This document shows positions 12,781 to 53,861 of a DNA stretch of 64,000 bases, one piece after another. The notes beneath the pieces were generated by a model. It saw nothing but the letters and a program-made list of their open reading frames with translations. It made no database searches and was not told the origin of the DNA. This stretch comes from Polytrichum commune (taxonomy: Eukaryota; Streptophyta; Polytrichopsida; Polytrichales; Polytrichaceae). The position numbers were made by a program, and so were the translations under genes. Location: the NCBI GenBank assembly GCA_950295325.1, contig OX485805.1, positions 49,128,758 through 49,192,757 on the forward strand. The letters run 5' to 3'. Each line of letters opens with the position of its first letter. Position 1 is the stretch's first letter.

Positions 12781-12884
12781 ACAACCAACAATTTCTTTAA
12801 ATAGTCCTTCTAGTGTGGGCCATAGAAACTCTCTAAAGCCCACATTATTTCTCAAATGAAAGTTAATTTGACCCACAACAATTC

Positions 12885-13096
12885 TCGGCCCACATCAAAT
12901 CTCTGGCTCAAAATTACAGTGAGTCACATTAATTGTTTTCCTAAGAAAATGATGTAAGTGCATGTTTTAATTTATGCTCCCTTTATCCTATTTTTGATAT
13001 AAAGTGACTACTTTATATTATATGAGGTGTTCGTTAGAAGTCTTAAGAAAGATTGAGGGGAAGATCCAAGGCCTTGGATGCACGTTATTTGCTCGA
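12885..13096 (+). repeat. Left outer arm of a long inverted repeat (part A)
   Basis: About 210 bp that reappears inverted at 33175-33365. Shared blocks, in order: CAAATCTCT, CACATTA, AAGAAAAT, CTATTTTTGAT, AAAGTGACTA/AAGGTGACTA, TTTATAT..TATGAG, AAGATTGAGGGGAAGATCC (AAGATTAAGAGG in the other arm), then GTTATTTGC. The inner edge is cut by the 4.2-kb element starting at about 13098. The remaining inner piece of this arm is at 17277-17312. Confidence 0.7.
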
Positions 13097-13289
13097 GCCA
13101 ACTAGACAATTAGAATGGCTCATGTTATTTGTTTCCTCGCTAATTTCCCATATACTTGAAACATGCAACCACTGAAAAACACACTGCTTTTCGCAAAACA
13201 AGCAACCGGAGAGACAACCCCACAAATAAAGCCCAAATTCAAACCCCAATTCCAAAACACGAACCCACTAACCGACTCCCATAGCATAA

Positions 13290-14060: not shown

Positions 14061-15074
14061 AGAATGGTTATCATATTTTGAGCATGCAGTCCAATCTCTT
14101 TCAAACATATATATTTTGATATTTGTTCTTGAAGTCACACCTAACCGGCTAACCACTCAAATATAAGTGTCCAATTGAAATATGTAGCCAAATTACACAC
14201 GTCTACCTTTCACTATACCATGGTAGGTACATTTACAGTTTGCATGATGGATTGTAATTTGATTGTGCCACATTAGCTGTAGTTGTCATGGTTTCAATCA
14301 TTACATTGATTATCCAATTTAGTATGTGTGGTACTAGTTCCCAAAACACACACTAACTTGGCAATCTCAAAATGAGTGAAAGCTGATTTTGTTTTTACTA
14401 AGTGAGACTAAATTCATGAATACAATGTTCATTTACCATATATTTCAAGAAATGTAGTGAGTTGTAAGGTTTTTGGAGAGTGTATAATTTTGTTTTGCTG
14501 AGCTTGAAAAGGCTTCTTCTTCTTTTTTGTTGGTGCCACTCACTCCCAAGACATCTCCTAACACTAAGAAACTGAAGAAAGCTTGCATTGAGAGTTTTTG
14601 ACACTTTGACACTTCGGACTACCAAAACCCTAGATCTTATGATGGCATTAAATTCATAGCATAAAGAAATAAAGTATCACCTTCACTAATTTCCCACATG
14701 CATTTATAGCCCACCCTCACTAAATAGGATAATCAATGTACTTATGTGACAATTCTATTTCAAAAGTAAGCTAAGTTACAACATAAACATTTTTTTCATT
14801 TATCTACTACATTTCTTGGGCGATGTATGATTCAACAAAAAATAATAATGATTTGCAAAGATACTTGCCACGTTAGTAGTGTTCATATTGGTGAAGACCA
14901 AATTGAATCCCATGTGGCAATTGGCTTTCAATACTCTAAATGTTCAACTAGACATAGCCTTTACAACACACTTACCACCACAAATGAGACATGCTGGCTA
15001 GAGAGGTTAGGAAGTTACCCTAAGTGACAAGTATTCTTCTTTCTGAAAGAGCTCCTTATTATTTCCTTCTAATC

Positions 15075-15304
15075 AGTGATTGGGGAGATTTTTGGGCATG
15101 CATAATCGGTTGAGATCCTAGTGTTTGCAAGTCCAACCGGTTCCATGTTGACAACCTTCGGTTTTTCTATATTAATTTGAGGTATATTCTTTTATAAATT
15201 CCTCCAAAGTGATCGGTAATTCTCCTGCAGTCTTGAACTTCAACCGGTTATTTCTCAAACCCAACCGGTTCATCTGTAACTAACTGCCAGTTCTCCCCCA
15301 TCAT
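15075..15304 (+). mobile_element. GATC-ended MITE, copy A
   Basis: About 230 bp beginning GATTGGGGAGATTTTTGGGC and ending in CTGCCAGTTCTCCCCC. It matches six further copies at 58.9-62.4 kb. The interior has recurrent CAACCGGTT palindromes. Ends are inverted (GATCNGGGAGA in better-preserved copies). Non-coding. This is the only copy of the family outside the 58.9-62.4 kb cluster in this window. Confidence 0.75.
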
Positions 15305-15437
15305 AGCTTGTAATACATCTACGAGTTTAAGACCTGTTATTAATATTATATTGTAAAGACTTGCAACATGTGTAGAATGAGGACATTGGGAGGAATCCAA
15401 TGTCTTCATAAGTGTCTAAATCGGATAAGATGTGGAC

Positions 15438-15818
15438 TACAATCATAATTATATGATATTTAGTGTCATATGGTGTTTTATGTCACTATGGTAACTTTTC
15501 AGATGACACTTCTTATGAACAGGTGAACAAATACTCTCATGGATGATGGATGAGTTCATCCATTGGCCAAAACCCCTCCTTCTCTTGTCAGCAACTTGTG
15601 ATGAAATATTGTCATGGTAGATTGAAATTTGGATGAAAAATCACTTCATAAGTGACAGTAATTGCCACATTGTAAATCTATAATCCCCCCCAAAATCTAC
15701 AAGGAATGACAAATAATGTTGGGTTAACATTTAGGGTTGGTGACACTATACCGCGGTTTACAGTTAGTATTGAGCAAGACAATCAGAATTGGTGACACTA
15801 AATATCATATTTAGTGTA
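15438..15818. mobile_element. MITE with TTTAGTGTC-type inverted ends
   Basis: The right end carries GACACTAAATATCATATTTA and the left end ATGATATTTAGTGTC as inverted repeats; the left end has a small extra insertion. Related ends are found at 26841-27152. About 380 bp, no coding capacity. Confidence 0.55.
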
Positions 15819-16567: not shown

Positions 16568-17276
16568 GAGCAAAAGTAGCATTAAGTTTGAGTTTTTCTT
16601 AGGCTATTTTTAATTTATTTGGGTAGTTACTTTCAATGCTTAGAATTAGTTATGTCGGTTTCTAGGACAAAACTAATGCCAAGTGGTGGTAAAGGTTCTA
16701 ATATAGGCTAAATTACTATCCAAACAAATCTAAATAGCTATAAAACAACGGGAAAGTTGGTGAGGTCCAAAAGGTAGTTGCACTTTTTGGAAAAATCTCC
16801 CAACATCCGCATTGGAAACCTCTTTGATACCTTTTTGACGCTTCTATATTTGATTAATTATCCATTCATTCACCCTTACTTTGCAAGCTTTTCCCTTCTT
16901 GTGGAGGTAATTTTGTGGGTACTCAAAGGGGCCCTCCTAGCATTGCTACTTAATGTTATGCTGGACACACTCTCTTACTAGAATTTTGTGTTATTGTTTC
17001 TATCAAATTGATTTTGTGGAAGCCTATATCTTTGAGTGTGTATTAAATTCTCGAGTTTGCTCGAGTGGAAATGTTGCCCAAGATGAGAGCTGTGTAAGTT
17101 TTGTGGGTCTATGTTTTCAAATCGGGGTTTTAATTTTTGGCTTTCTTTGTGGGGTTGTATCTCCAGTTGCTTATTTTGCAATAAGAAATGTATTTTTCAG
17201 TGCTTGCATGTTTCAAGTACATGGAAATTTAGCGAGGAAATAATTAACATGGGCCATTCTAATTGGCTAGTTAACC

Positions 17277-17312
17277 CATAACACTATATTCGTTAATTGG
17301 AGACTTTTTGAT
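17277..17312 (+). repeat. Left outer arm of the long inverted repeat (part B)
   Basis: AACACTATATTCGTTAAT then GGAGACTTT matches the reverse complement of 33139-33168 with about one mismatch. In the right arm this piece joins part A directly; here they are separated by the 4.2-kb element. It lies about 0.5 kb beyond the last possible exon of gene X. Confidence 0.65.
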
Positions 17313-17803
17313 GACTTTGAGACTTATTAAGGCCGCAAATTTTAAATTTGGACCAATAATGACAGCATAAAGGGCCCATATATAAGGTTTTGCATATAAT
17401 TATCGGACAAAGTGCATGTAAGTGGAAACAAATATGAAGCATACATGAGAACATTTGCGTATGAAATAAGAAATCGATGCTGATGGAAGGGAGTATGAGG
17501 ACAACAATTGCAAATTGAATAAATTAAATGGGCTCGAAATACAAATATAATGGAAATACCATCAATGTATTGGAGAAATTCATAGCCTATAGAGAACCAA
17601 GCACTACGTTCCGTTACTAGTACGTTTGAAATAGATGTTTGTAGTCCCACTATTTTTTTTGGGCGGCTAAGTCCTTTTTTTTGGCGGCCTCCATGGCTCT
17701 AAAAATCTCAGGCCCACGACTGTATCCTTGTGTGTTGCCTGGACAAGAATATGTGTCGTTCTTGCATATTTCAGGACGCGCTCCCGAATTGTACGAGTTG
17801 GTA

Positions 17804-18625
17804 TTATAAGTAGAATACAAGGGCGTTTGCGAAAGGGAACGTCTTGCGCTTCTCCGGAGGGCCAGACAACGATTGGACTCGGAAGATGCGGCCTTGAGGG
17901 CGTGCCTTGGCAATGACGAAATCGAGGAGGGTTGGCCACCAAGCGAGCAGGGAGCCACCTGCCAAGAAACACCATAGGAAGATAATAATAAGAACGGAGT
18001 GGGGAAAATGGGGAAGGGCGGTTTGAGATGGGCGCTCGTAAACCTCTTGGCACGCGGAAACAAAGAGGAAAGCAACGGTGAATATGGGTTTAGGGACAAA
18101 GAAGGGCACCTTGGATTTGGTGACATCGATCCCGGGGACGATGGGGGCGTCGAGGAGAGCATACGAATCCGGTTGAATTGCGGCGTTGTTGAGTAATGTG
18201 GGGGAAGCATAGCAAGGAGGGCCAACGACCGGGGATGGGTTTGCAGGAGGAGGAACGGGGACGATGGGGGAGGGATCGCACCGGGTTGCTTCCAGGTGGA
18301 GACGTCGGCTCGGCCCACGACGAGCGACGGCGTCGTCCCTCGAGGGCGACACATGCCCCAAACGAACGAGCGTCCGCTTCTCCTTGGATAGGGGGGAGGG
18401 CGACGGGGCGAACACGCGGGGGACAACCCTGGGGGGCGGGCTGTTGACAACACCATCGTCGACGTCGACGTCCCGGGAGTAGTCCACGGCCGAGGCTGCA
18501 TCCACCGCCGAGAAGTGATAGAGTGAGGGGACCTCGGACTCCGGGACGTCGCGGGAAGGGGAGCGTGGGGACGAGGGGGGACGGGAAAGGCCATCGAGGA
18601 CGGGGGCGTCACATACGGGGGCACA
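17804..18625 (-). CDS. Possible last exon of gene X or separate Pro/Ser-rich protein
   Basis: A 273-codon open frame that begins right after a splice acceptor (CCCATAG, 18632-18626) and ends at 17804. The first half is rich in Pro, Ser, Arg and Asp; the second half has two hydrophobic segments (around IFTVAFLFVSAC and SVLIIIFLWCFLAGG) that could cross a membrane. A good donor (AAT, then GTATAT at 18773) inside the preceding FCP1-like exon is in the same phase, so this could be exon 5 of gene X with a 148-bp intron; otherwise gene X stops at 18726 and this is an unrelated frame. A second low-complexity frame (17650-18729) overlaps on the same strand, which weakens the call. No family recognised. 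Confidence 0.3.
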   Translation of the reverse strand, partial: CAPVCDAPVLDGLSRPPSSPRSPSRDVPESEVPSLYHFSAVDAASAVDYSRDVDVDDGVVNSPPPRVVPRVFAPSPSPLSKEKRTLVRLGHVSPSRDDAVARRGPSRRLHLEATRCDPSPIVPVPPPANPSPVVGPPCYASPTLLNNAAIQPDSYALLDAPIVPGIDVTKSKVPFFVPKPIFTVAFLFVSACQEVYERPSQTALPHFPHSVLIIIFLWCFLAGGSLLAWWPTLLDFVIAKARPQGRIFRVQSLSGPPEKRKTFPFANALVFYL

Positions 18626-18725
18626 CTATGGGCAACAACAACATCAACAAGAACAAAGACATCCAAAAACGGATGAAACATTAGATACGTGAACCACATG
18701 ATAACAAACATGAAATGGAGATATT

Positions 18726-21700
18726 TCAAATCAATTTATTAAATTTTGCGAGCCTCATGATGCTCTTATATACATTATCGCGGGGGCTTAGCCCCGCATT
18801 GCCGATGGGGTTGGACCTAACAAAAAAGGGGATGCTACCGGCGTGGAGCACAAGCCTTCTAAGGTAAGGCGCTAGAGTCTTGATAAAAAATGTGTCCTTC
18901 CTATCGCCGGTCCACGTTTCGGGAAAGATGACGTTTCCCGGGGGGTTCAAAACGCTCTTCGCGGGGCTGTCGTCGACGAGGAGGGTGTTCTCCGGAGTAG
19001 GCCATCACCCGTGGGGTGTCCCCTGCAGCTGGGGGACGCCGCGCCACAGTCTGGACCTGAGGACCTTCAGGAATTGCTGTCCTCCGCCACGACCGCCGAA
19101 CTTCGGAACCGGCAGACACTTTTCGTCGAGCAATTCATCGCAGTCCTCTTGCCCGAGGACTAGGCAAGGGCTCGGGAGATCACGGAATAGAAACTCGACG
19201 ATGGGTTCAATGTTCTCCATGACCATGGAGCTCCACACAACGACGTGAGCTACGTCGAGCACCTCGCGAAGGAAGTCACGCGGGCCGGGACGGGCGCGGA
19301 CAACCTTGCGGTTGATGAGGGTGTCGAGCTCTCCGTCGTAGTCCCTTTCATCGGGGTGACGGAAGAGACGCGTGGGGACCCTGGGGATGTGTTGGGTGTG
19401 ACACAAAACCCCGTTGAGGTCAAACACGATGAACGGTTTGTTTCGGGTCTGAGGTGCACTGGTCGAGGGGTTGCGACCTATCTCCGGGGGATCCTGTGAT
19501 TAACAATTCGACTAGTTTAATGCTATGATCCAATAAAGAATTTTGCATCAAATATGAAGACGATGCATTATGGAAAAATACTAAGGGCGAGAACATGATT
19601 GTAAGGAGAATGTGCTGAAGGGCACATTTGCGAACGCTCGTTCGTGAATGAAGGCCAGAAAGTGGCGAGGTGCATAATTCACGAACGCTCGTTCGTGAAA
19701 GAAGGCCAGCAGTGACTAGGCGCACCATTCACTTACGAACGGTCGTTCGTGAAAGAGATGGACGAGGGGTCGGATCCTTTTACGAGCGTCCGTTCGTAAA
19801 CGAGGTTGAATTGCACAAGAAAGTGAACCCGCATGTACATACACAATACAAGGAATACAATTTAATACAAAGTGTGTGCGATTCGATGCAAAGCTCATTT
19901 CATTATATGAAATCCGTCAAAATTTACAGTTTCTCTCATGGTACACTATCACACAGGTTCCTAAGGCAACAGGATGCCGTGTCCTACAAAACTGATCGAC
20001 ATAAGGTCGTACACAAAATGGGCTCTCGCAGGTCTCGGATGTCGATGCAGACAACGCGCCAAAAACACAGCGAAGGTGGTTAGGAGGTTACGAACGAGCG
20101 TTCGTCAAAACAGGTGGCAATCTCAGAGATGAGTTACCTCGTCATCGGAGGGAGCGGCAGCGGCGCTGGAGCGTGCGGCAGCTCCCTCCTCAGTGATTAA
20201 CGAACGCGCGTTCGTCACATCCACCGCCGCATGTGCCTCCATCTCCATAGGGTCGTCTGAACGCGCCGCCTGAGACGCCTGGGTCTGTTGTATGTCGTTG
20301 TCTTCGACACCCAGGTCGAGCGTCTCCATTCGCACATCCCCCATGTATGCGGGGGGATGTCGGTCTGTCGCGGGGCTGTCATCGACGTCCATCCTCTGGA
20401 CCCCTGCCGTGTCACTCGGGCTCCCTTGCGTGTCCTCCACAATGAGCATGTCAGTGTGTCGCGCAGTGTCATCGCCCCTTGTCCTATATACTCTCCTGGG
20501 GACGACGGTGGAAGGTGTCGTGTCCGTCTGTGAAGGCAGTCCTACCGTTGGTGGGGGAGGGGTGAGGACTGTTTGACCTGAAGGTTCACGAACGCGCGTT
20601 CGTAAACCCTCATCCTCACGGATGGCCGCCGAGACTGCATCGTGGATGTTGGCGGTGTCCGCGGGCATTGCAGAGGGTGGAGTCACCACCGGCGTTGGGT
20701 GGGGCGTTGGCTGGTACGACGGCCCTGCGGGGAAAGGAGCGTGCGTGGGGTATCCCGCAGGGAACGGGTACGCCGGCTGAGGGGCAACAGCGAAGTTTTG
20801 CAGCCTCGTCAGCATCGCCAGTATGGCATCCGTCTTCTCGTTTGAGGACTTCAGCTCCTCCTCAATTTTTCGCATTTTCCGAGCATTCTCCTCTGCAGCC
20901 GCCGCCATGTCCTCCTTCATCTTCTGCTCGAGCTTTGCGTTAAGCTCGGCGACGGAAAGGGCCTCCTCCTTGACCCTCTTGTTCTTGTCGAACTCCACCC
21001 CAAGCTCGACCATAATGTCAATGTCCCCCTCGTCCTTGTCGGAGACCTCGATGATCGCTCCCTCGGGCAACTCCACGTACGGGGTCTTCTTCATCCTCCG
21101 TCGCGTGTTGCGGAACAAGTCCAACGTGGGACAGGAGTGTTGGTCGAGGACATTGAGGGTCTCCATTTTGGGGACCACCTGCCTGGGCCTGGGGGACACC
21201 GATGTCGAACAACCGCCTGGCGTGCCGAAGGCCTCTGCGCCAGAGAATCGCGCGGGAAGCACATCGTGGGAGGCCCCCGCTGAGGACCCAGTACAACCAC
21301 CTGGAGTCCCTTGGGGTTCCGACGGTTCCCGGGATGGGGCCAACATCCAGAGAGGAGTGACGTCCAAAGACTGGATGATGGCATCGACGTTGACGGATGG
21401 GCCAGGCTCATCGTCGTCTGTTTCCATGGGTGGCATGCCTTCGTCGGTCGGCATGTTGAAGTCCGTCCTGGGCACGGACATGTCACTCAGGTCCATCGTC
21501 GACGCTTTGGTCTTGTGGAACTTGTAGTCCTCCTCGTCGACGGCGTCAACATATGTATTGACGCACAACCCCAACATCTGAGAAAAGAAGGCAAAGAGTC
21601 AGTCATATACGAACGCACGTTCGTGAACATGAACCCTTTGAGCGAAGCAATAATAACAAATTAATTCACAAATGATTAAAACGTATCAGTTGCCTAAGAG

Positions 21701-24514
21701 TAATTGTTTGGAGCATGCAGTGATTACGAACGTGCGTTCGTAAAAGTGCTCTGAGATGGTTTACCATGGCCGCGTACATAAATTTGTTGCCCCCGAAGAC
21801 GTTGTAGATAGTCTCGCCATTCATTGCCAAACCCTGCAATATGGACACGTAAAACTCCATCCTCAACTCGAGCGCCGGGTAGACCGTGAAGAGCGTCTCC
21901 TGGAAGATGTCCTTTGGAGGGGGGTGAGGGATATTGTAGATCTTCTTGAACGTGTTGCTCGCCTTGATGGGTGCTCGCCCATTTCTCAGCGCATTGTACG
22001 TCAAGAAGATGAGGCTCACCGCTCCCACCTGTTTGTTGCCTCTCGCCTCGTTTATGGCGACAATCCCCTCCGTCTTCGCGGGCACGTATGTGCTGTGGAA
22101 GATGTTGTACTCGAACTTGATTTGGTTCTCGTACAAATCGGTGACGACGGATAGCTTCTCCGTCTCCACAATCCACAGCCATACGTGCGGCTCCCTCATT
22201 GTTGGTGATTTGTGCTCCATGAATTTCGCCATGAAGGGGTTATAAAAAGGCTCCCCCTTCGCCCCCTGTTTGTAAGCACCCGGGATCCCCCTGAAGTCGA
22301 TGACCGCAAAGGGACAACCCCTTCGGTCCTCCCTGATCTCGGCCCTGCTGATGGTGCCATCCCACTTGGAAAAAGTGGTCCTCTCGACACCCGTTGTGAC
22401 CACACAAAATCTTGCGACGCCCTCGAATGTGGCGTTCTTCTTCCTCTCCAAGAAGGAGACGTACCGCTGAATCTCTTCAGGTTCAGTTTCTGTTTTTTTC
22501 GCTCTTTTGTTCCCCTTGAGCTTCAGCATGGCGACGTGTTCTTTCACCAGACTCCGCATCGAGGCACCGTTGATGTTGTACTGAGCCTTGAACTCCTTCC
22601 ATTTTGCCCAGTTGACATCGCCATCGGCTTGGAAGAGGTGCATCTCAGGCAGTAGTCCACTGATCTCCCGCATGGCAGCGGTCTTCAGCTTCCTGTGATC
22701 GCACCACTCCTTTATTGAGTATGTGCCGGGCTTGTGCTTCGGTCTCCTCAAAAATATTTTGGGATAAGGGATCGTCCTTCCCACGGTGTTACCAAGGAGG
22801 TGCACCGCACACCGTTGCAACTCTGACTCGGTCAGTCCTTGGAGGGGCCTGAAAAATTCTCTAAGTAGAGGAGGGGCCTCTCCGGTCTTGTCGTTGCTGT
22901 ACTTCTCCTCAGTGTCGGGGTTCACTACGTCGCCTGAGCTGTGCGCGTCGAAGAATTGGGTCCACAAATCCCAGGTTTCTCTGTTGCAGCAAATCAGCCG
23001 AAGCTCACCTTTGAGCTCCAGAACTGATTTTGTGCTCGTGGACTTCATGTCGATGGAGGTAAACTTGTCGACCATCGTATCACAGAACGCCTGCAACATA
23101 CAATGAAGAATGTCAGTGTTTCATATCAAACACGAACTCACGTTCGTAAGTTGACAACTTTAGAAATATGTGAATACAACTTATACTTTACGAACGCGCG
23201 TTCGTGAACTCACCTTCCACTGTAGGGATTGGGTCTTCGCGTTCTCCCTCTCTTTAGGCAGGCACCCGTGCGCTACCCAGACGTCTCTTGCCGCCACTAT
23301 ATTCGCCGCCCAGGAGGCCTCGAATGCCTTGATCTTGTTCCCATAATTCAAAAATGTGGATATCTTGCGCAGCTTGTCCCAATCGTCAGACCACACCAAA
23401 AAAACCTTCCAGTAGCGCAAGTCCGCTTTGAGCTCGTGCTGGAAGTTATCATCTTTGAGGATCAGTTGTGATGCCTCCAGGCTGTATTGTCCATCGATTA
23501 TCCAAAATTCTCCCTTCTCGATTCTTGGCCAATCCTTCTCAGTGGGGCGCGACAAAAAACCCTTGGGCATCACGCAGACGGTCTGCCTATCCCACTTGAC
23601 ATTGTTCATCAGGTTATTAATTTGCCACTTTACGCCTCCGCTTTCACGAGACCTCACCACCCACTTGTTCGGGGATTTCTCGCACTTGAAACAGTCCACG
23701 TTGAAAGTGAAGTGGCGTCCCATAGGCCAGCAATCCTTGGAGTAGTTGTTGAAATCTCGAAGGATTTTTGTCGCTTTCGCCGCGTCTGGATTTTCTCCCT
23801 TCTTCAAAGGGGTCGGCATCAGTGGCGGAGAACTCACCTCAGCGCCTTCCGTCACTCCAGACTTCTCCATATCCTCCCTTGATCTCTTGGATGGAGTTGA
23901 GTGTCTGCTGGGCCCTTCGGTCCCCCTGCTACCCGAAGGCACAGGCCGCGGAGCACTTCTCGATCCTCCGGCCCCCGAAGCAGATGGTTTTCTTGGACTT
24001 TTTTTTTATTTGCCTCCGCGGCAACACTGTTGAACTTCGAAATATTCAAGGTCAGGGCTGTCAACTTCCTCGCCGTCCAGTGTTGACTTAGGGCATATTT
24101 AGTGAAGAGAGCATCCAGGTTGAAATGCTTCGCATCGGATGCGACATTATGGCATGCATACGCGTAGGAGAATGGGTGCAATAGGTAGTTCAAAAGGAGG
24201 TTGATATGGTCTTTTTTATTTTTCATGTCCAGAATAACAAAATCTCCTTATGCCTCCACGGACTCTATCTCCCAATTCTTTGTCTGCACCCATTGGTCTG
24301 GTTGGTCAGCCCTTGTCTGCAGCTCATAAGTGAATCGCAACGCAAACAACCCTTCCTCGGTATTCGTGGGGATTGCCGTCCACTCATCCATGACTTCTTC
24401 TTTTGGGACATAGTTGTCGTTCCCATTCGTATCCGAGACACCTTCTGGAAGGCGCTCCACTGGCACTGCGAACAAGTCGATCGCGTTTCTGTTAGCTTTA
24501 GCCATCTGCATCAC
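18726..24514 (-). CDS. Gene X: ParB-like / DNA-methylase-like / FCP1-like multidomain protein, interrupted
   Basis: Four exons: 24514-23214, 23090-21765, 21577-20138, 19493-18726; three small introns (123, 187, 644 bp) with GT-AG ends and matching phase 0; about 1,600 codons. Exon 1: an N-terminal region, then RPTEKDW..IIDGQYSLEAS, resembling the ParB/Srx-fold motif (normally DGQHR; the Arg is absent). Exon 2 ends with GETIYNVFGGNKFMYAAM, running into exon 3, which resembles the FGGSG loop of DNA N4/N6 methylases. The rest of exon 3 has an acidic region, a Lys/Glu/Ala coiled coil and a Pro-rich part. Exon 4: FCP1/HAD-like, with VFDLNGVLCHT (motif I, second Asp replaced by Asn), VVVWSSM and LLVDDSP. 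Interrupted at about three places, so a decayed copy, an assembly problem, or both. Start may be 24514 or 24505; a splice acceptor precedes 24505, so an upstream exon is possible. Palindromes lie in its promoter, introns and exon 3. Frame and exon structure are well supported; domain names are inference. Confidence 0.6.
19630..19797. repeat. Palindrome cluster in gene X intron 3/5' of exon 4 (4 copies)
   Basis: Copies of ACGAACGNNCGTTCGT at 19630, 19681, 19735 and 19782 (one or two mismatches in some), spaced 47-54 bp. They sit in the 644-bp intron. The arms are conserved while the central two bases vary (CT, CT, GT, TC). Confidence 0.9.
20090..20105. repeat. 16-bp palindrome near the donor side of gene X intron 3
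   Basis: ACGAACGAGCGTTCGT, 33 bp inside the intron from the exon 3 donor. Confidence 0.9.
20200..20603. repeat. Two palindromes inside coding exon 3 of gene X
   Basis: Copies at 20200-20215 and 20588-20603 lie within the exon and are read as VTNARSL and LRTRVRE, keeping the frame. Palindromes inside coding sequence show that the motif spread after, or along with, the gene. Confidence 0.85.
21609..21741. repeat. Two palindromes in gene X intron 2
   Basis: Copies at 21609-21624 and 21726-21741, one near each end of the 187-bp intron. Confidence 0.9.
23132..23205. repeat. Two palindromes in gene X intron 1
   Basis: Copies at 23132-23147 (diverged centre) and 23190-23205; the latter begins 8 bases after the donor of exon 1. 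Confidence 0.85.
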
Positions 24515-24539
24515 ACAAATGCAAATCAGAATTGGCTTT

Positions 24540-24868
24540 ACGAACGTTCGTTCGTAAACACCGTGCCATGTAGATTATTTTCATAGTTTGGTTTTGGACA
24601 TACGAAGTTTTGAATGCTTTATGCATTTCAGGGATCGTTTCAAATACATTCACATTGGTTCACATCTTTTACGAGCGCGCGTTCGTAATTGGAGATGCCT
24701 TGTTATTAGTATTTTGTACATAACTATACGAACGTGCGTTCGTAAAGTAATGCGATATATTGGAACCTACTGAGGTAGATTTGGTGTCGTGATTGGGTTT
24801 AGGGACTTATATGAATTACAGCATGGATATAACCTATTTTGGAGGAAGGGTTTCGAACGCACGTTCGT
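24540..24868. repeat. Palindromes upstream of gene X (4 copies)
   Basis: Copies at 24540, 24671, 24728 and about 24853, irregularly spaced, starting 26 bp upstream of the first possible gene X start. They occupy the likely promoter or 5' UTR. Confidence 0.9.
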
Positions 24869-24899
24869 AAACGTAGTCTTTGAGATCCAAAGAGTCTTT

Positions 24900-25117
24900 A
24901 CGAACGCGCGTTCGTAAAAGGTATATATGATGCGCGGCACATGTATTTACGAACGCGTGTTCGTAAAAAGGGTGTATATTATGCACTTCACATGCATTTA
25001 CGAACGCGCGTTCGTAAAAAGGGTGTATATTATGCGCGGTACAGGCATTTACGAACGCGCGTTCGTAAAAAGGGTGTATATTATGCGCGGTACAGGCATT
25101 TACGAACGCGCGTTCGT
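24900..25117. repeat. Tandem array: five palindromes on a 51-bp period
   Basis: Palindromes start at 24900, 24949, 25000, 25051 and 25102 (steps 49, 51, 51, 51). The spacer (about AGGGTGTATATTATGCGCGG, then TACAGGC) is also repeated, nearly identical in the last units, so this arose by recent tandem duplication. Confidence 0.95.
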
Positions 25118-26029
25118 AAATGAGCCTGTTGTTTGTTTTTATTTTTTTATTATTATATCCGTACATATATGGATACGTATATATACGAATTCGTATACAT
25201 ACGTATGGCAAGGGGTTGCTTGCTGTGTCTCAGGAAAGCTTGCACTCGTGCCTGCAAGTCAGAAAGGTGAGATTGAAGAAAACAATACAATCAAAACATA
25301 TAGACTTGGAATGTGACAGAATTCAGAATGAGGATCCGAACTTGACTTCCAAAACATATGTCATTCAATAATGAACAAATATAGACTATGAAGGATCTGA
25401 AAAGGGAAGGAATATTGTGCTTACTCTGAAATTTTACACACCCAAAACCTGCTTGCTCCCTTGTTGAAAACCCCAGCAAACCCCACAAAAGCAAGGTGAT
25501 TTGAAAGTCAAATGCACCACTGCACCACTGAAATTGCCTTCAGACTAGTTGTTGCATGCTATATACAAACCCTAACTAAGACTCTGATGTATATGCAACT
25601 CAAAATGCTGTATCTCTCAAGCTGCTACTCTAAGACTTGCAATTATCAAGCTTCTAGCTTGAGTATCCTAATATTAAGCTTCCAACTCTCAAGCTTTAAA
25701 CTCTGCAAACTTTAAACTCTCCAACTTCAACTCTCCAACTTTCAACTCTCCTAACTCGAGTTCTCTATTCTTAAGCTGCAACTCTCAAGGGACTCTCAAG
25801 AACTCTTAACACTTGCGCCTACAAATGAAGTGCACCACACAAAACTAAAAAATGCTAGAGCTTCGCCTCTAAACCCTAAACCAACCCGGCGCTCCTCCTC
25901 TCTCTGCTCCAAATGAGAATGAGGAAGGAGAGGAGGGGGCGCGGGGAGGTAGCCCGCGCCTCTAGGGTTTCCCCTCGGGCTACCACATGGCCGCTTCCCA
26001 TTGGGGAGGGAAGTGATGGGTCATGCTAG

Positions 26030-26165
26030 CAAGATGAGGGGATTGAATGGAGAGATAGTTAGGTCCGTCGGATGAAGAGATAGGATGGGGTGGAGAGATG
26101 AGGGGATGGGATGGGGATAGGATGGGGTGTGGGATGGGTGGATGGGGGGGATGGGTTGGAATTCA
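26030..26165 (+). repeat. G-rich GATGGGG tract
   Basis: Irregular repeats of GATGGGG/GGGATGGG make the plus strand rich in G-runs; it could form G-quadruplexes. Simple-sequence origin. Confidence 0.7.
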
Positions 26166-26840
26166 TTGGGGTTTAGTAATTTAATCGAAGACATTTTCAT
26201 ACATATACATAAATACACGTCTAAGCACATAAATATATTCAATGTGACTTAATAAAGTGATTTGCAATGGAAGCACTAACCGATTTGACATAAATATATG
26301 TCATCACAATAAGAAATGTAAATATATATTACACCATTTGCACTTACTTTGAGACTTTCCCAAGTCTCTCATTAATAACGAAAATAATCCAATTTGGATG
26401 TATAAGCAATAAAGACACGTTAATTTCAAGCTTTGTAATATGTATATGCCTCCATCACATAATTTTAAAGAGTTCAATACAAATACATGTATTTAAAATG
26501 CTACATCCCCTTCATCTACTTTAGATTCATTGTAAACATCTTCTAGACAGGGAGTATGAATTCAATTTCTACAATGCACATCATGTAGTAGGGATTCGAT
26601 GGAAACCCTACCCCCAAGAATGTGTAATAATATAGTGTTTTCAAATATATAGTATTTTCATAATTGAAATACCTTTCAAGTTGTTAAATGGTTCCTCAAA
26701 TAATTTAATATAAGATCCATAAAATATGTCCCGCTTTAAGATTGGTGGGAAGGGTTTAGGATTTTCTTACAAGAGGTGCACGAAAAATCCAATTTCAAAT
26801 ATTAGGCTTTCAATTCAGTTTATTATGTATGAACTTGAAC

Positions 26841-27152
26841 TACACTAAATATGATATTTAGTGTTTGATTAGATTTAGTGTTTTACCACCCTACTATGCT
26901 CAACACTACGTTTCAATTCTTTGATAATTAGTGTTAGACATAAATGCGCCGCCGCCGCCTTCCTTGTTGCCACCTCTTTCCTACTAAACACTAAATTTGT
27001 GCATGTAATTTCACATAATTATTACATTTAATGTTTAGATGATATTTAGTGTTTGAGTTTACATTTAATGTTACTTACTTTCATATGGTTAGTGATATTT
27101 AGTGTAGTGTTCGTATTTAGTGTATCTAACACTATATATCATATTTAGTGTA
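26841..27152. mobile_element. MITE with CACTAAATATGATATTTAGTG ends, likely TA target
   Basis: The first 25 bp (TACACTAAATATGATATTTA then GTGTT) are inverted at 27128-27152 with one mismatch. The outermost TA on both sides may be a TA target duplication, as in Tc1/mariner-type MITEs. The interior has several more TTTAGTGTT motifs. 312 bp, non-coding. Confidence 0.7.
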
Positions 27153-28224
27153 CTGCATTTCACCCAATGGTCATTGAATGTTTGGCTCGCATCAAATGTC
27201 AGCTGCAAATAAATTAAGTAAGTGCAATATGGATTTATGAGTAGTGAATATAGTTTGTGTGTAAACCCTGTTATATTAACAACTGGACCCGCACATCCCT
27301 CACAAACCCTAAACCCTAAACCCTTGGTTTTCTCACCATCCCCACTATATGGGGGAATGTTGTGATCCAACCTAATAGTGTTGTGTGCATTTTAATCACA
27401 CAATGCATAAGTGGGACCCCATCTAGGTATGGTTTCAATTCATATCATTACAGTATCTTATGCACCATTCCAAATTAATTCAACATTGCCACACAATGCT
27501 GAATCAATTCACTATTTGCAAACCTAGAGTTGCATTTGAATTATTAAGATATAAAGTATATCTAGGCATGGTTTCAATTCATCTCCTTAATCTACCTTAC
27601 TAGCTTGCATGAATTCACCAGGGTTTTTTTATTGGTGTTCATGCACTTGGTGAGTATTTGCCGGAATAATGTACATAAATGTTATGTATCTACATGTAAT
27701 GTGTATATATGTAAAGTATATATATATACATGTAAGAAACATATATATAGATATATAGATATGTAAAAATATATAAGAATATACAATGTATATATAAACA
27801 TATTTATATATTATAATATAAATATAAATATATACTTCGATATGTATATAGGAATATACATTTTATTTTTTGGTTCGGGAAACCTTAGTCAAACCTAAGG
27901 TGGGCAACGGATGAACATATTATCAATGCGTGCATGCCATATATATTCAATACAGAAAGTTATTTATGTCCCGCATGAATAGAATGGCATATTGTTAGGG
28001 TAAAGTAGGCGGCGGGAATCCGCTTTTCAAAGAGCATCCAAGGGATTTTGAACCACGCGTCGAGGAGTACTTAAAGCTCTCCCCCACATTGCAGAGCTCT
28101 TTTTTGCGGCAGACTCCAAGTGTGCGCTCCAGACACCCGACGGGGGGCGCTCGACCCATTTTCCTGTGCGTGAACTGTACACTCACAGGTGTTAGACTGC
28201 CTTATTCCTCAAATACCGCCGCAA

Positions 28225-29040
28225 ATACCGGAGATTTACGAACGCGCGTTCGTAAATCTGGAGTGCGCGCATGTGTGTAGGGATCAGATATATAGAGGTT
28301 GGTTGGATATTTACGAACGTGCGTTCGTAAATACCGCTTTGACATATATTATACATCCATAGATTTATAGACCCATAGATGATTCTGCAGTCAGACAATA
28401 TGACAATGTTAACGAACGAGCGTTCGTAAATGCGAATTTGGACGTCCGACATTCACTGGCAATGGGCAAGAGTCCACGAACGCGCGTTCGTAAACATTGA
28501 AAGCGCGGAGACGGAGTATGGTTCATCCTCAAATAACAATGGGGAGTTTACGAACGTGCGTTTGTAAGTGTCAACGCTTGTTTTCAACATGCGGAGACTC
28601 ATGAATATAATGGGTAGGAATATGTATATAAAATACTGGAGATTTACGAACGCGCGTTCGTAAATCTGGAGTGAGCGCATGTGTTTAGGGAACATATATA
28701 TCGAGGTGGGTTGGATGTTTACGAACGTGCGTTCGTAAATACAAACTTGACGTATATTATACATCCAGAAATATATAGACCCATAGATGATTATGCAGTC
28801 AGACAATATGCCAATGTTAACGAACGAGCGTTCGTAAATGTGCATTTGGACGTCCGGCATTCACTGGTAATGGGCAATATACCACGAACGCGCGTTCGTA
28901 AGCATTGAAAACTCGGAGACGGAGGATGGTTCATCCTCAAATGACATTGGGTAGTTTACGAACGTCCGTTCGGAAGTGTCACCACTTATTTTGAACATCC
29001 GGAGACTCAGGATTATAAGGGGAAGGAATATCTATACGAG
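28225..29040. repeat. Two 408-bp tandem units, each with five palindromes
   Basis: Unit 1 has palindromes at 28238, 28313, 28412, 28476 and 28550; unit 2 has them at 28646, 28721, 28820, 28884 and 28958, each exactly 408 bp later. The sequence between them is also duplicated with modest divergence. 408 is a multiple of three, so long open frames with the peptide YERAFVN cross the array; they look like by-products of the palindrome rather than genes. Confidence 0.95.
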
Positions 29041-29105
29041 TTTGCAAACAGAAGTTCCTAAGTAGCATCGAGTTCACCAGATACACATATGACGTGCGAG
29101 AGTTC

Positions 29106-29520
29106 ACGAACGGGCGTTCGTGACTTCCCCATGGAAGTCTCAGCGATGCATTCAGGACACCTCCCTGGGCATGCACACACTTATATATGTATTCACAACA
29201 AAATGTGAGACATAGATACGAACGTGCGGTCGAATAAATGCAAGGAATGTCTCTAGATCATGACTTCGGGATGTGGGAAACTGCTCCATTTGCCCCACAT
29301 ATAGAGAGTATGGGCGAGGGATGTGGATGGGGGGCACATGGAAGAAGGCATTCATATGCGTCACTGACTCGGAAGTTTTGTGTACGCATACAACAAGCAT
29401 CCCTCCACAATGGATACGGTCCATGTTTTAGTTGACATACAGTATGACGGGGAACATTCGAACGCCCGTTCGTATATATGCCCAACTCAAACAGCATCGT
29501 GTCGATATGCAGACGAACGT
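29106..29520. repeat. Last palindromes before gene Y
   Basis: Copies at 29106-29121, 29218-29233 (diverged), about 29457-29472 and a half-site at about 29512, ending some 120 bp before the gene Y start. No copy is seen to the right of this point. Confidence 0.8.
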
Positions 29521-29640
29521 TTGGATATCCCCACTGTGACTTGTTCTGGATTGTGACTTAGGGAGACTAAACTCTTGCCGTCTTTGTGATTGACTTTGAC
29601 TTGTGGTGATTCCATGTTTGCGTCTTGAGGTGGGTGGGCG

Positions 29641-32600
29641 ATGGATATGGGAGATAGTGCATTTGAGTTGTTGACGAATGCTTCATCGTCGGATACGGAA
29701 TGTCGCCTTTCGTCGCCATCGGAGGATGATATTCGGTGGGTGAACGTCCTGGGTGTGTCTGGGGATTCATCCTCCCATGAGTCCTTGGAAGGGCAGGAAC
29801 ATTCCCAACATTCTGGGGATAGTAACGACGACATTCCATTGTGTGCCGGTTTCGGGAGGGAGCAGTGGGTGGACCTTGATGTTATTCTTGTGAACGAGGA
29901 TGGTGTCCCTGTGGTAAATGGCATTTGTAGAAACTCCGATCCCCTTGAATGTATCGATGCCAACCCCCTTGGATTGGATGATGTTGGTGTTTGCATCTTG
30001 AATTCTTTGCTTCCATTGGAAGTCCCGTTGACTTGGAGATTTTCCTTGCGGCGATGGCCCATGTGTCGAGTTCTCCATGAAGAAGTAAGCTTGTGGGATC
30101 ATGGGCGACGGCACAAGCAAACGCAGTCAGCTTTGTTGGCCGCAAGACATCCTCGGAAAGGTCTGCGCAAATACGATTCTAGTCGCGTGTCTGGCAAACA
30201 AAAAGAACGTAGACGGGATTGCATACTTGGAGAGGATTCTATCCGTCAAGTGTCCACAAAGGACTGTTGCGCGAAGAAATGTTGCCAATTTTTTCTGCGG
30301 GAAAAAATTAGGTCCCTGCGTCAAGAGATGTGGCTTGCAGATTTTTGTATGAGGTCAGCAAAAAAACTTGAGGTCCACAGGAATTTGCACGTTGACACCC
30401 ACGGCAATAAGGTGGTTACCCTTGAGAATGTGGAAGTGTGTTGCACTGCATGGTATTCCATCCATGCAGTCTCCAAGGCTGATTTTTATAGGTTTAGGAA
30501 GTATTCTTTGTTGGATCGCCGTTCTCGATTTCATGGCAACTCGGGCACCAAGAAACCTAGGAAGGCTACATTCCAAGCGTCCGCGACACTCTCCACCATC
30601 ATAGTGCCGTTGGCTGATGCAATGCCTCACAAGACGAGGACATTGTCGTCTGGGGAGAAAGTTGTTCAAATGGTGTTGCCCACGGGCACAAAATGGAAGA
30701 ACATCTTAACGGACATAAACGAAGTGGGTCGCAAAGCTGGATGTAGACACATTTCTTTGTCCAAGTTGAGTGTAATTAAAAACTAATAGTTTGTAGAGTA
30801 CATTTTGAAAAGACCCGGGGACAAGTTTGCTAGGTGTACGGCTTGTGAAAAATACAAAGGTCTTCGAGACGCCCATCCTATAGGCACAGAGTCCCATACT
30901 AGACACCAAAGAAAATACATTGAGCATGTCAACAAGCAGGAGGCCCACTGTCAAGATTACTACAAGAATCGTGCACTATCGATAATGAGGCCTGCGGAGG
31001 TCCTTACTGTCATCCATGATAAAATGGACCATGCCAAAACCGCGTGCCCTTGTTATGCACGCAAAATAAAAGCCACGGATGGTCTCTTCAAGTTGCATGT
31101 AGCTGTCACAGGTTCGTATGGAATCACAAATGTGTTTGGAAGGATTTCCAATGTGTTTGGGTTTGTTTGGCATATATCAAACTTCATCCGTCCGTTGAGT
31201 GGTTATCCCATATTTTTGTTGTTTATCCATCGTTTTTTTTTCGCAGGTATGATCGCCCACGGCCATGGGGACGTTAAATATGCCCATTATGGTTTGGATT
31301 TTTACCCTGGCGATGCCAACCACACGGTTTGTTCATTTGCAAAACTCTTGCGCGATCTTGAGAAACTGCCGATTCACTCTTCCCGTGCCCTTTTTGATGG
31401 TTGTGGAACGACACCCCTTTATGAGGCAGTGCTTCAGGGGAAGGAGATTTGTATGTCGGCATTACCGGAACCACCTACAGAACCCATTTGTACAAAACCA
31501 TTGCCTCCAACTCTCCATGTTCAACTTGATAATTGTGCTAAAGACAACAAATGTCGATATGTGTTTTGTTTTTGGTCATTGCTTGTGGCAAAAAACATAT
31601 TCAAAGAGGTGTTTGTATCTTTTTTGATGGTGGGACACACACACGACGACATTGATGCATCATTTGGACGTTGGAGCATGAAGTTGCATGAAGAGGATTT
31701 TCCCACCATACTGCTTCTCATGAAATCATACATGGATTTGGACAATGTGCCCGTGATCCCGCACATGATTGAGGAAGTACCAAATTTCAAGGCCTTCATC
31801 AAGCCATACATGCTAAAGGGAGAGGACCGTTTGGTGGGACATACGAAAACACAACAATTCCGCTTCTATACGAGGGATGATGGTGTCCCGGCTATGCAGT
31901 TTAAGCTTTTGTGCACATCTCCTAATTGGTCTCCAGAGGATGGTATACTCGTGTGGCGTCAGAACGAGGATGAGAAATGTTTGCTTCCGGATGGGGATCC
32001 GAAGCCTTGCAAACCCGACCCCATGAAGAATGGGTTGGAAATCATCAAAGGCATATCCGGATTCATTGAGTATTGGAAAGAGTTGTGTGAGGAAGACATT
32101 ACCAAACGTGTTAGGGATACTTATGAACCGTTGATCGTGTATTGGGATCGCATTCGCTCAGCCTTGATGACACTTGGTGGCGACACACGTATAACTTTGA
32201 CACAAGGATTTTGGCCACAAAGTCGTTTGACAGTTGTCGAGTCCGACACGATGTTCTTCGATAATGGAGAGGTCCATGAAGAGTTCGCAATGGACGAGCA
32301 TTACGTTGGTCCAGCGCGCAATCGGCCGGCACCGTCGTTTCGTGTGGGTGTTGATTGCCATGAAGGATATATGGTCCTCGTACGAGCAGGAGATGAGGAG
32401 CACCCCAAACCAATTTGGTTGGTGAAAGCATTGTCTTCACCCAATTTTGTCCGAACTAGCCCCAACTTTCGTCAAATTGAAGTGGAATATTGCCGTCCTA
32501 GCACCAAAGACCAGAACGTTCTCCGGACCTATTTAGGGTGGGACACCAAAAGAATTTCAAGTGGACAGTGGACTCAACATATGGACCGGTTTGGATAAAC

Positions 32601-32771
32601 ACGGATACAATACTTTGTGCTTGGAAACCGCGTAAGGGCTCTAAATCGGAAACAATGACCATCCCCCAAAAACATATAGATTTTGCCAAAGACAATCTGG
32701 CACGTATTGCAACTATGGAAAAAGAAGCTGAGAATGGATATGAAGCGGAATATGGAGACAGGGAAACATAA
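29641..32771 (+). CDS. Gene Y: DUF7869-like, probable transposase-related protein, interrupted
   Basis: Coding sequence in one main frame from an ATG at 29641 to 32771, with an intron at 31112-31246 (GT-AG, 135 bp, phase 1). The N-terminal about 150 residues are acidic and Ser-rich. Then comes a Cys motif (DCCAKKCCQFF), a helical region with VEVCCTAWYSIH..SKADFYRF, a CTACEKYK motif, and the family signature QLDNCAKDNKCRYVF followed by VGHTHDDIDASFGRWS. From memory this pair defines a widespread eukaryotic family (DUF7869) seen in animals, oomycetes and algae; the conserved Asp/His suggest an RNase-H-like transposase core, which is inference. The C-terminal part is basic. About three interruptions break the frame, so it is probably inactive. 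Gene Y is divergent from gene X and shares its palindrome-filled upstream region. No terminal inverted repeats directly abutting it were found. Confidence 0.6.
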
Positions 32772-33120
32772 CATAAGTTGGAATTAAATGGCTCAACATA
32801 GGGGGACTTTATAGATTTGGTATTATTGCAATTATTATATAATGTATTTATAATATTCAAATTTATAAATACGTTTGGGATGTGCCATACAATCCCATAA
32901 GACCCTTATGTATGGGATGCGCATCCTAAACTATATAATGACATAATACTATTTGATTTTGGGATTCGATTGTTTTTTCCACGTGTAGTGCATGTTTATA
33001 TTATGATATGAAGACTTGCTATTTTTAGCCCTGTGAATATTCTTCGCGGACGAATTTGTAAACCGTCATGTTCCCAAAGTTCCATATGTTCACAATATTG
33101 GCATCCCAAACTATGGGCGT

Positions 33121-33365
33121 ATTTTATTTTGAGACTTTCCAAAGTCTCCGATTAACGAATATAGTGTTCCATGCAAATAACACGGGTTCAAGACCTTGGA
33201 TCTTCCCCTCTTAATCTTTCTAAAAGCTTCCGACCAACATCTCATAAAATATAAAATAGTCACCTTACATCAAAAATAGCATACGATAAGATATACACCC
33301 GCATCAATTTTCTTATAAAAATTAATAATGTGGCCCACACTAATTGTGAACTAGAGATTTGGTAT
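33121..33365 (-). repeat. Right arm of the long inverted repeat (B then A, uninterrupted)
   Basis: Inverted copy of 12885-13096 plus 17277-17312. Here both parts are contiguous, showing the state before the 4.2-kb insertion on the left. The inner edge lies about 350 bp past the gene Y stop. The outer edge fades near 33370-33418, where CACTAG precedes GTAACAG. No target duplication could be established. Confidence 0.65.
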
Positions 33366-35522: not shown

Positions 35523-38500
35523 TCATGCATAGCTCAGGTACGTACTAGCTGCGGCAGCAGTTTTGGTCTGCCTCTTCCTCTTTTGACCTGGACCGGTAGC
35601 TGCAGGTGGAGCAGGTGGATTAACCGCGGCTGTAGGTTTAGCTCTGGTCTGCCTCCTTCTCAACCTTGGAGCTCCGGGAACTTTTGCAACAACTTTGGGT
35701 TTAAGAGTGCGCTTCCTCTTAGGGGCGGCCGGCTTCTTCTTCGCACTCTTGGCAGCCCGGCTTGGTGCTGCGTCTTCCACAATCCCTGCTCATCATGTCA
35801 ATTGAAAGACCACATGTTAAGGTGATTTCTATTTAGATCATCATGATTTGATGCAGCAGGGTCACAACTATGTCTCAGGTTTCACCAAGCCGACACTCAT
35901 TGACTTGAAACAGCCTGCCCTCATATTGGAAGCAACATGATGTAGCTGCTATGGTAACATAGCACACTATGTAGGTGATCTTCAGTCTCATATTAACATG
36001 GTTTCCGAATCAAACCTTGATAGAGTCAAACACTAAGAATCCAAAATACCAAAATATGTAATTCAACTATCTCTTACTGATGTGTTTAGAATCATTTTTC
36101 ATACAATGACAGGTACATTTGTCAACAGTTGGTCATTTTGTTTCTTACCATCCGCTGCTTCATGAGCAGCGATGTAAGATGGTAAACTGCGAACATGGTG
36201 AGTGTTCATTATCAAGGCCGCTAACTGGTGGTTGTTCCTCCTCAAAGCTTCATTGAAGATGACCCTGCCAAACAAAAAGTTTACGTTCTAGTTATAAAAT
36301 ATTTACCTACTACACAAACATATTATGCAAACACCACATAAATTGGGAACTTTTGTAGGGGACACTTCATTCGTGAGCACTACCAGAAATGCATGTCATC
36401 ATGGAAATGGATGTTGAGGCTCGCGTTCTACAATCAACCTGATAACAAATTCAATAATCATATCAAAGTACTTTGCAGTTCACTAGATTTAGTAACAAGT
36501 TCACACACCTGCTGGCATCCCCTTCGGATGCATATAAGCCCAATATTATACACCTGCAACAAGCAAGAATACCCCCCCAAAAAAGTTTAGGAACAATTAT
36601 GTGTTCATACAAGAGATCAGTCTTTTAACTCAGGACACACTTGAATGAATCATAATGGCATGCCTTGAGCGACATTCAAACATGCATGAACCTCAAGCAA
36701 ACTTCCAATACCACTTTCATTTGGGCAAAATAGAACTTAAGAAAGAAAATGGTTAGAAACTATGAACATGCATTTGTAGATGACATATGTTGAAGATACC
36801 ATATTTCAGGGACATACATTTTGGCTTTCAAGTCAGGCTTATAACCAGCCTGATAACGGTCGTTGCCAATTTTCTTCACGCCTGGATACTTAGCTTGAGC
36901 CCCTTTGCCTCGGCTATCGCGTCGAACATAAATGATTAGCTGCTCCTTTGAGAGCTTGTAGAGCTGTAATAACATAAAAAATTAACTTGAAAACAAATCA
37001 AATAAGGCACTTTAATCACTGAAACGGTTGATTTGCAATGATTGTTAAATAGTGCACAACAATTTCTACTTGATGCTTTTGAAATATCATCAGACGAAAA
37101 CTCGGTTCAAGTCCTAGTAAGTAGGATGAACAGTACATGTGTGATCTCCACTCTGTAATCTTCTGGTGTGAAATTTATATCAGCTGTTGGTCCAGTCAAT
37201 AAGAGTGCAGCTCGATCGTAGGCCCTGCAACAAAAATTGTATGAAGAAGGTCATCCTAGATTCAGCTTAGAGCTAGACCACAAGAATTTGCAGGTACATT
37301 TTAATAATTGTTTAACAATTTAATTGACATAGATCGACTAAAATGATACTGGTCTAGTATGTGTAAATCTACCTATTTGATTATTTTTGATGTCAAATTT
37401 CTTGGACAAATTAATCAAACGAATATTGAGAAGTCTGGTCACCAGTCACAGGATGTTGCCAATTATTAGTACCTGGCTGCGTCCTCTTTAGTCTGAGAGG
37501 CACCTGCCAATAGCATGTAACAATTTGAGCGCATGTCAATGTACAAACCAAAAAAAAAATTCTTAAAAAATTCTCATCTACCATGAAAGACATCAATTTG
37601 CAAGTCTACAGAAAGCATGCTTCAATTTTTGTGGAAGGTTGATGAATGAATTTCACAGTAACTCACCGAGATATACTTGGGCATTGTTATGCCTGCACTC
37701 ACAGGGATCACACGTACAGACACAAATAAATGAGTATATGTATCGCATTATTTTGGTGTTAGTGAAAATCCGTTAGAGTTCCATATTAAAGGCCCGACAG
37801 CCATCTTAATATAATAAAATCCATTTGTTTCCAACAACCACTAAGGTTAAAAGCAATAAAACAGAAAACCTAAACTCTGACAGCAACACTAACTGCAACT
37901 GACAATTACACTTCAGACTTGCTCAAAAGATCACTTTCCAAATGTGATCATAGGCTCTCCTTACAGCATCCCATAAACAAGGACCTGCCAATAAACACAA
38001 AGCGGCAGCGGCGACCAAAGGACGCTGCACTGCAGAAACAAGATCTGACAGTTTCACATTCCATCACTCAAGTGCAGGCGCCTGTATTAACTGATGGCAT
38101 CATATAATCCAGTACTGATGGCGAGTGCAAAGATCTTGTCAACCATAACATAGAGCAGATCATGACCGACCATGAGAGCAAGCACAGATCGGGATGTGCA
38201 CAAAGAAATTTACTTCAAGGCTCACACTCCAAGACAAACTGGCAGGAATGAATACACATAATATGGATAAAGCCATGAACAAACTCATCTGTAAGATTGA
38301 GTCCAGCATTTCAGAATAATCAACACGCTGACATGAAACAATCAGCAAATGCACAGGTTGACATGAAAAAATCTACAATCATAAGGTTGACTTGAAACAA
38401 CCAACAATCTAGAAGCTACATGGAACAATCAACAATCAACAGGTTGGCATGAAACAAGCAAAACTCGAGAAGGCTAACATGAAGAAAACAGAACCTTGAC

Positions 38501-53805: not shown

Positions 53806-53861
53806 TTTCCTTGTGTTTCCTTGGTGCAATCTTGTGTTTCCCTAAACCCTGTCTCCCCGCG

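Follow-up and report, generated by a model that had tools for sequence, protein, structure and literature searches.

Why should one short, CpG-rich palindrome recur some 33 times across a single 10-kb block of the Polytrichum commune genome, and to what kind of sequence does this block belong? The locus lies within a 64-kb stretch of contig OX485805.1 (positions 49,128,758 to 49,192,757), to which we refer as the window and whose internal coordinates we use throughout. The original prediction had described about 33 copies of a 16-bp palindrome around two genes, X and Y, and had interpreted them as dimer-type sites. In our analysis, the interpretation as a constrained, dimer-type palindrome stands, while the structure that encloses it, a DNA transposon at 17280-33168 that owns both genes, had been missed.

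Within the window, 34 positions match ACGAACGNNCGTTCGT with at most two mismatches, 23 of them exactly; nine deviate at one position and the remaining two at two positions. The exact copies span positions 19681 to 29106. One of the two-mismatch matches, at 18362, stands apart from the cluster, albeit inside the element, and has both of its mismatches in the right arm. We set it aside and count 33 sites, which lie between 19630 and 29473 and agree with the number given originally. The comparison with shuffled sequence, which the original prediction had proposed as a control, sets these 34 matches against a mean of 0.02 and a maximum of one in 100 dinucleotide-preserving shuffles of the window. 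Likewise, none of 300 first-order Markov simulations of the block contained a match with one mismatch or fewer, in a control that scored only matches beginning with ACGA. The motif had been reported as absent elsewhere in the 64 kb, and indeed the remaining 48 kb of the window, outside 17280-33168, do not contain a single match with two mismatches or fewer. The conserved core is longer than 16 bp and comprises 22 bp, TTTACGAACGNNCGTTCGTAAA, with the form TTTACGAACG-NN-CGTTCGTAAA; the three outermost positions at either end of this core carry 0.8 to 1.7 bits, and beyond it every position within 11 bp carries at most 0.32 bits.

The architecture of the sites is strict in some respects and loose in others. 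The centres of the sites are CG (13), TG (6), AG (3), CA (3), CT (2) and TC (2), with GT, TT, GG and CC seen once each. The previously noted combination of conserved arms with a variable centre holds, and the length of the centre is 2 bp in all 23 exact arm pairs. Over the tested spacings of 0-11 bp, exact arm pairs were found at none of the other lengths (0, 1 or 3-11), and neither were direct or everted arm pairs at any of them. Solitary 7-bp half-sites are rare, with two in the rest of the element, two in the right flank and none in the left flank. This fixed spacing, combined with a free centre, suggests a symmetric dimer. Not all of the sites arose independently of each other, as some were multiplied by tandem repeats, namely a 51-bp array at 24897-25120, an array at 19631-19756 and a 408-bp duplication at 28223-29036. 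An ungapped comparison of 25-bp flanks yields 25 independent groups, a number that falls to about 22 once relatives separated by indels are merged, given that the ungapped comparison overlooks small-indel relations that are visible in the tandem-repeat analysis.

The 408-bp duplication, which is situated upstream of gene Y and provides five site pairs, also offers a measure of constraint. Between its two copies, the arms differ at 2 of 70 positions, compared with 42 of 326 outside the 16-bp cores (p 0.012), while the whole 16-bp cores differ at 3 of 80 (p 0.017) and the 22-bp cores at 5 of 110; these figures come from this one duplication and are blind to pairs in which both copies have decayed past two mismatches. 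CpG dinucleotides show the same tendency, with 1 of 22 changed in the cores against 8 of 14 outside (p 7e-4), and over all 33 sites, 129 of the 132 arm CpGs are intact. Furthermore, two sites are found in the last exon of gene X and differ in their codon phase, which argues for selection on the DNA and not on the protein. Taken together, the fixed 2-bp spacing, the conserved arms, the variable centre and the two exonic phases support the view that the palindromes represent a constrained dimer-type site and not a chance repeat.

The confinement of the motif to one block finds its explanation in the surrounding sequence, since the block is the interior of a single transposon. An inverted-repeat search identified a pair of 28-nt terminal inverted repeats (TIRs), located 15.8 kb apart at 17280-17307 on the plus strand (AACACTATATTCGTTAATTGGAGACTTT) and at 33141-33168 on the minus strand, and complementary at 27 of 28 positions (96%). 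They are flanked by the tetranucleotide CCAT on the left (17276-17279) as well as on the right (33169-33172). Moreover, a second copy of the repeat that was hit by the element is present at 12880-13271 on the opposite strand and constitutes an empty paralogous target: when the flanks are joined without the element, retaining one CCAT, they align to 13271-12880 (77.5% over 396 columns) without a gap at the junction. The paralogue does not read CCAT at this point, and the evidence for the duplication is therefore the pair of copies beside the element. The TIRs, the CCAT duplication and the uninterrupted paralogue identify 17280-33168 as a DNA transposon, which measures 15,889 bp, duplicated 4 bp of its target and contains all motif copies; in these sequence hallmarks it conforms to TIR elements of the cut-and-paste type. 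A short repeat, GAGACTT, is found at its ends (17300, 17319, 33131 and, inverted, 33142); it also occurs at 26351, 26362, 29135, 47083 and 48403 and is therefore weak as an end-specific repeat.

Between the divergently oriented genes X and Y, the element contains a motif-free, AT-rich middle stretch (25131-28220; GC 0.37, CpG observed/expected ratio 0.53), whose base composition is like that of the window flanks and which is possibly a nested insertion; when a nested element was looked for, the borders of the stretch showed no clear pair of TIRs. Within it, positions 26344-26375 resemble the inner right end of the element (33124-33155; 88% over 32 nt), and about 250 bp further, at 26628-26637, the sequence ATATAGTGTT is like the tip of the TIR. 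Judging from these similarities, the two segments are perhaps the end remnant of a related element nested in the middle gap. In addition, a near-perfect palindrome, ACACTAAATATNATATTTAGTGT, is present both outside the element, at 15795-15818, and inside it, at 26842-26865 and 27129-27152, and may represent the terminus of a small family of MITEs.

Repeats and open reading frames (ORFs) were also noted in other parts of the window. A repeat family with members of 76 to 327 bp, which are 71-89% alike and found in both orientations, occupies 58626-62384 and 15074-15306. At 53811-57123, several ORFs, broken by simple repeats, resemble a hAT-type transposase by our reading, with no Pfam match at E 0.01. 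On the minus strand, a proline/glutamine-rich ORF of 1,093 codons (38416-41697) contains 10.2 copies of a 33-bp repeat at 40665-41002 and ends in a stretch that we read as AP2-domain-like, again with no Pfam match at E 0.01. This stretch and the CpG deficit of the flanks would both, as we read them, fit a plant host. Scans of the window with Rfam, at the gathering threshold, and for tRNAs were empty.

The two genes of the original prediction had been named without coordinates; we assign X to a minus-strand gene at 24505-20123 and Y to a plus-strand gene at 29641-32598. Gene Y consists of two ORFs that share a reading frame and are separated by a pair of adjacent stops (30784-30789), which reflect either damage or an unmodelled intron, and it encodes a DUF7869 domain (PF25273; E 1.1e-39, 136.5 bits, cut-off 26). 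DUF7869 is classified in Pfam as a domain of unknown function, and our literature search found no paper naming it; we consider gene Y a putative transposase gene. Its 602-residue ORF has a sole CxxC at residue 16, a sole H(4)H at residue 76 and no H(3)H; both motifs precede the DUF7869 match at residues 235-376. A tblastn search with the second ORF of gene Y against phages gave no hits, and DUF7869 was absent from one prokaryote genome and 14 controls, a comparison that is uninformative.

Gene X, by contrast, has no recognizable family, and its introns and upstream regions are sequence-based models. On the minus strand, it comprises a first coding segment (23214-24505) that is disrupted by a single in-frame stop and by a frame shift within an A-run, a GT..AG intron 1 (23091-23213), an exon of 442 codons (21765-23090), a GT..AG intron 2 (21578-21764) and a last exon of 484 codons plus stop (20123-21577). 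None of these pieces, including the 442-codon exon, matched a family above the cut-off in searches of Pfam, NCBIfam, PHROGs and PDB, where the last exon was searched against Pfam only. The last exon has a match to HAUS-augmin3, a coiled-coil-rich family, which remains below the cut-off (E 0.0032; 17.4 bits against 29.4) and which we take as chance, together with the sub-threshold matches of gene X to EFG_III (Pfam, E 0.094), to TIGR00968 (E 0.036) and StcA (E 0.077) in NCBIfam, to two PHROGs (E 0.16 and 0.45) and to a kinase-like protein in PDB (E 0.35). A possible ParB-like reading of gene X, based on a DGQ motif in the exon at 24005-23214, gained no support at the sequence level, where no ParB/sulfiredoxin-fold domain was matched in Pfam or PDB even at E 10. 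The last exon itself has a charged stretch that appears heptad-like to us, and this coiled-coil-like stretch is compatible with, rather than proof of, a dimer. Single-sequence structure models of gene X reached mean pLDDT values of 37.0 and 33.6. No relatives were found in viral contigs for the second ORF of gene Y or for the gene X exons at 21666-23120 and 23206-24005.

A third gene, Z, is encoded on the minus strand at 18726-19499 by two same-frame ORF pieces, parted by one stop, and corresponds to an NLI-interacting-factor-like phosphatase (PF03031; E 3.8e-7 and 1.5e-5). The part of the element in which it resides (17280-19599) is unlike the flanks in its composition (GC 0.52, CpG observed/expected 1.08) and is maybe a recently captured gene. 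Since all three genes are interrupted in the ways described, this copy of the element may no longer make the protein; the interruptions may point to a defective copy, or else to unmodelled introns or sequencing errors.

With the genes in place, the distribution of the sites becomes apparent. Thirteen copies are located upstream of gene Y (28238-29473), ten of which lie in the 408-bp tandem duplication, and nine upstream of gene X (24540-25117), with six spaced by 47-51 bp. Five copies, three of them in a 51-bp tandem, occupy the spacer from the end of X to the start of Z (19630-20105), at 19630, 19681, 19735, 19782 and 20090, the last of which lies nearer to the end of X than to the start of Z. 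Both introns of gene X hold two copies each, at 23132 and 23190 in intron 1 and at 21609 and 21726 in intron 2, and the two exonic copies are found at 20200 and 20588. The original description of copies in promoters, introns, an exon and spacers therefore holds, with two in that exon. In total, 31 of the 33 sites are noncoding, although coding sequence accounts for 7,796 of the 15,889 bp of the element (binomial p 1.1e-7, a value that overstates independence, as the sites fall into about 22-25 groups). There is no copy in either TIR, and 2.35 kb separate the left end, and 3.7 kb the right end, from the nearest counted copy; for the excluded match at 18362, the distance to the left end is 1.1 kb. 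Beyond the palindromes themselves, the regions upstream of X and Y share an inverted 50-nt similarity (25072-25121 and 28309-28358; 76%) which, by reaching past the palindrome, suggests a shared promoter module.

The motif also dominates the CpG content of the introns. All eight CpGs of intron 1 and eight of the ten in intron 2 are part of motif cores, proportions based on a total of 18 CpGs. The element is not CpG-poor overall, however, and the intact CpGs of the motif could hence partly reflect youth. The observed/expected ratio is 0.82-1.08 in the genes of the element overall, 0.83-0.90 in the exons of X and 1.08 in the region of gene Z; outside the cores, the motif-rich upstream regions reach 0.73-0.82, compared with 0.37 and 0.52 in the two flanks. 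The element may thus be young or may have been unmethylated for a long time.

Several transposons with known control systems invite comparison. VANDAL elements are Mutator-like. The VANDALs of Arabidopsis resemble the present element in having a short motif that is largely specific to one family and is found in many copies in introns, intergenic regions and upstream of their own genes, and in possessing three genes (VANA, VANB and VANC; PMC5735166), as compared with X, Y and Z here. The VANC21 motif is described there as clustered in noncoding parts of VANDAL21, including introns, as often tandem and as avoiding coding sequence, and the present element shares this clustering in the noncoding surroundings and introns of its genes. 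In the same study, VANC21 expression is reported to strip non-CG methylation from the entire element and CG methylation locally at the binding sites, and VANC21 appears to be the nearest demonstrated case for the self-activation that we propose. Yet VANC motifs are, as given there, short, non-palindromic and of one orientation (YAGTATTAY; AGTTGTCC/AC), unlike the 22-bp CpG-rich palindrome, and VANC proteins hold a DUF1985 domain (PMC5735166). The present element instead combines DUF7869 with a 4-bp target duplication and 28-nt TIRs, and neither a Mutator-type transposase nor DUF1985 was matched, within the reach of HMMs, in ten ORFs and the four gene X pieces.

A second parallel concerns En/Spm and other CACTA elements, in which an element-encoded DNA-binding protein recognizes repeated motifs (PMC2613891). 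Likewise, the TnpA protein of Spm activates its element in correlation with DNA demethylation (PMC10398659). The TIR described here holds CACTA after two bases, and the size of the element is near that of the 17- and 20.5-kb CACTA elements mentioned in PMC2613891. However, its termini read AACACTA, its target duplication is 4 bp instead of 3 bp, and its motifs are internal, with all 33 sites more than 2.3 kb from the ends, even if the meaning of 'subterminal' in a 16-kb element is a matter of judgement. When CACTA is taken as the element end, we find no target duplication of 1-5 bp in the sequence, and none of the ten ORFs scanned matched a CACTA transposase family. By its termini, duplication and motif position, the element is thus judged not to be a CACTA element, nor, as far as the HMM scans reach, a VANDAL by its transposase or a VANC domain; in its workings it seems to resemble these systems. 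More distant parallels are maize MuDR, whose MURA protein lowers the methylation of its target (PMC10398659), and fungal DNA transposons bearing TET/JBP genes, in which the accessory gene may counter methylation (PMC12730594). MURA, however, acts at TIRs, which are free of the motif here, and the present element has no TET/JBP match, its signal being an array of DNA motifs. Literature searches on large bryophyte transposons, on palindromes and anti-silencing in transposable elements, on TnpA and demethylation and on 4-bp duplications in Chapaev and CACTA elements did not reveal a description of this element among the matches listed (titles and the beginnings of abstracts).

As X and Y are transposon genes, the sites appear to serve the control of the transposon itself rather than to be a host feature, and their confinement to the element together with their placement around all of its genes suggests self-regulation. 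With moderate confidence, we propose that the palindromes are self-recognition sites for a protein encoded by the transposon, which would co-activate or un-silence its genes. We infer that the binder is a dimeric element protein, most likely X, as we also do its effect and its sensitivity to methylation. In this scenario, X would bind the palindromes and activate or un-silence X, Y and Z; dense occupancy upstream of the three genes and inside X would activate them jointly and would keep the noncoding stretches clear of repressive methylation. In trans, the element could activate sister copies as well as itself, leaving host genes without the motif undisturbed. Given the four arm CpGs in each site, binding is probably sensitive to CpG methylation and could therefore act as an on/off switch.

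Clusters upstream of all three genes would also be expected if the transposon exploited the sites of a host transcription factor and encoded no binder itself, and many plant transcription factors are dimers. The copies in both modelled introns, in the exon and in the spacer behind X would nonetheless not be typical of a promoter factor. In the 48 kb of the window outside the element, though little sequence, there is no copy with two mismatches or fewer, and we know of no plant factor with this 22-bp site; we thus regard a host factor as rather unlikely. A role in transposition itself, with the sites serving as accessory sites at which the transposase or a TnpA-like partner assembles a synaptic complex, seems distinctly unlikely. 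Its precedent is found in CACTA elements, where excision requires repeated motifs to which a protein encoded by the element binds (PMC2613891). Those motifs are subterminal, however, whereas the copies described here keep their distance from both ends, and the ends have GAGACTT as a short repeat of their own, an argument that is weakened by its occurrence elsewhere.

It is also conceivable that the copies have no function and were generated by a self-spreading mini-palindrome or by simple tandem expansion, and two 51-bp arrays and the 408-bp duplication do supply part of the copy number. We consider this very improbable, because about 22-25 flank groups remain, the arms changed less than their surroundings after duplication, the centre keeps its length and not its letters, and the motif is confined to the element. 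Finally, many near-identical dimer-type palindromes in one block recall the iterons of replication or segregation systems, in which a dimeric protein of viral or plasmid type assembles on an array for maintenance; EBNA1 and papillomavirus E2 are dimeric maintenance proteins that act on palindrome arrays. This explanation has, in our view, hardly any probability, given that the element, with its TIRs and target duplication, is inserted in a chromosome, that no replication, segregation or capsid family was found among the ten ORFs scanned, and that the sites form three separate clusters upstream of genes.

The motif was also encountered beyond the window. Its 22-bp form occurs in two stretches of a prokaryote collection, with one site each, and its 19-bp form in three IMG/VR stretches, with one match each; the 16-bp form is present in 98 IMG/VR stretches, with one site each among the 80 listed. 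When sites were counted per locus, requiring CGAACG to be intact and allowing up to one mismatch, 93 of 100 loci had one and seven had two, and no motif cluster was seen in the IMG/VR and prokaryote collections. Literature matches to the two 7-letter arms look, among those listed, like lox, primer and cloning papers and are thus uninformative as to the original remark that no eukaryotic element with this motif was known to have been described.

To our knowledge, there are few plant elements for which it is understood how a transposon escapes sequence-specific silencing without harming its host. Returning to the proposed self-recognition, we put forward as a tentative extension that the element represents an independently evolved anti-silencing or self-activation system outside the Mutator and CACTA groups, in which a protein outside the known families might recognize the 22-bp palindrome, present about 33 times, as a dimer site gated by methylation and thereby switch three genes together. 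If this is true, control of the VANC/TnpA type recurs in evolution and can rely on a palindromic code with intrinsic sensing of methylation. An unrelated lineage with so clean and long a site would make the escape from silencing testable with one oligonucleotide and one protein, methylated or not, and the 22-bp site would provide a very specific DNA address for targeted epigenome control.
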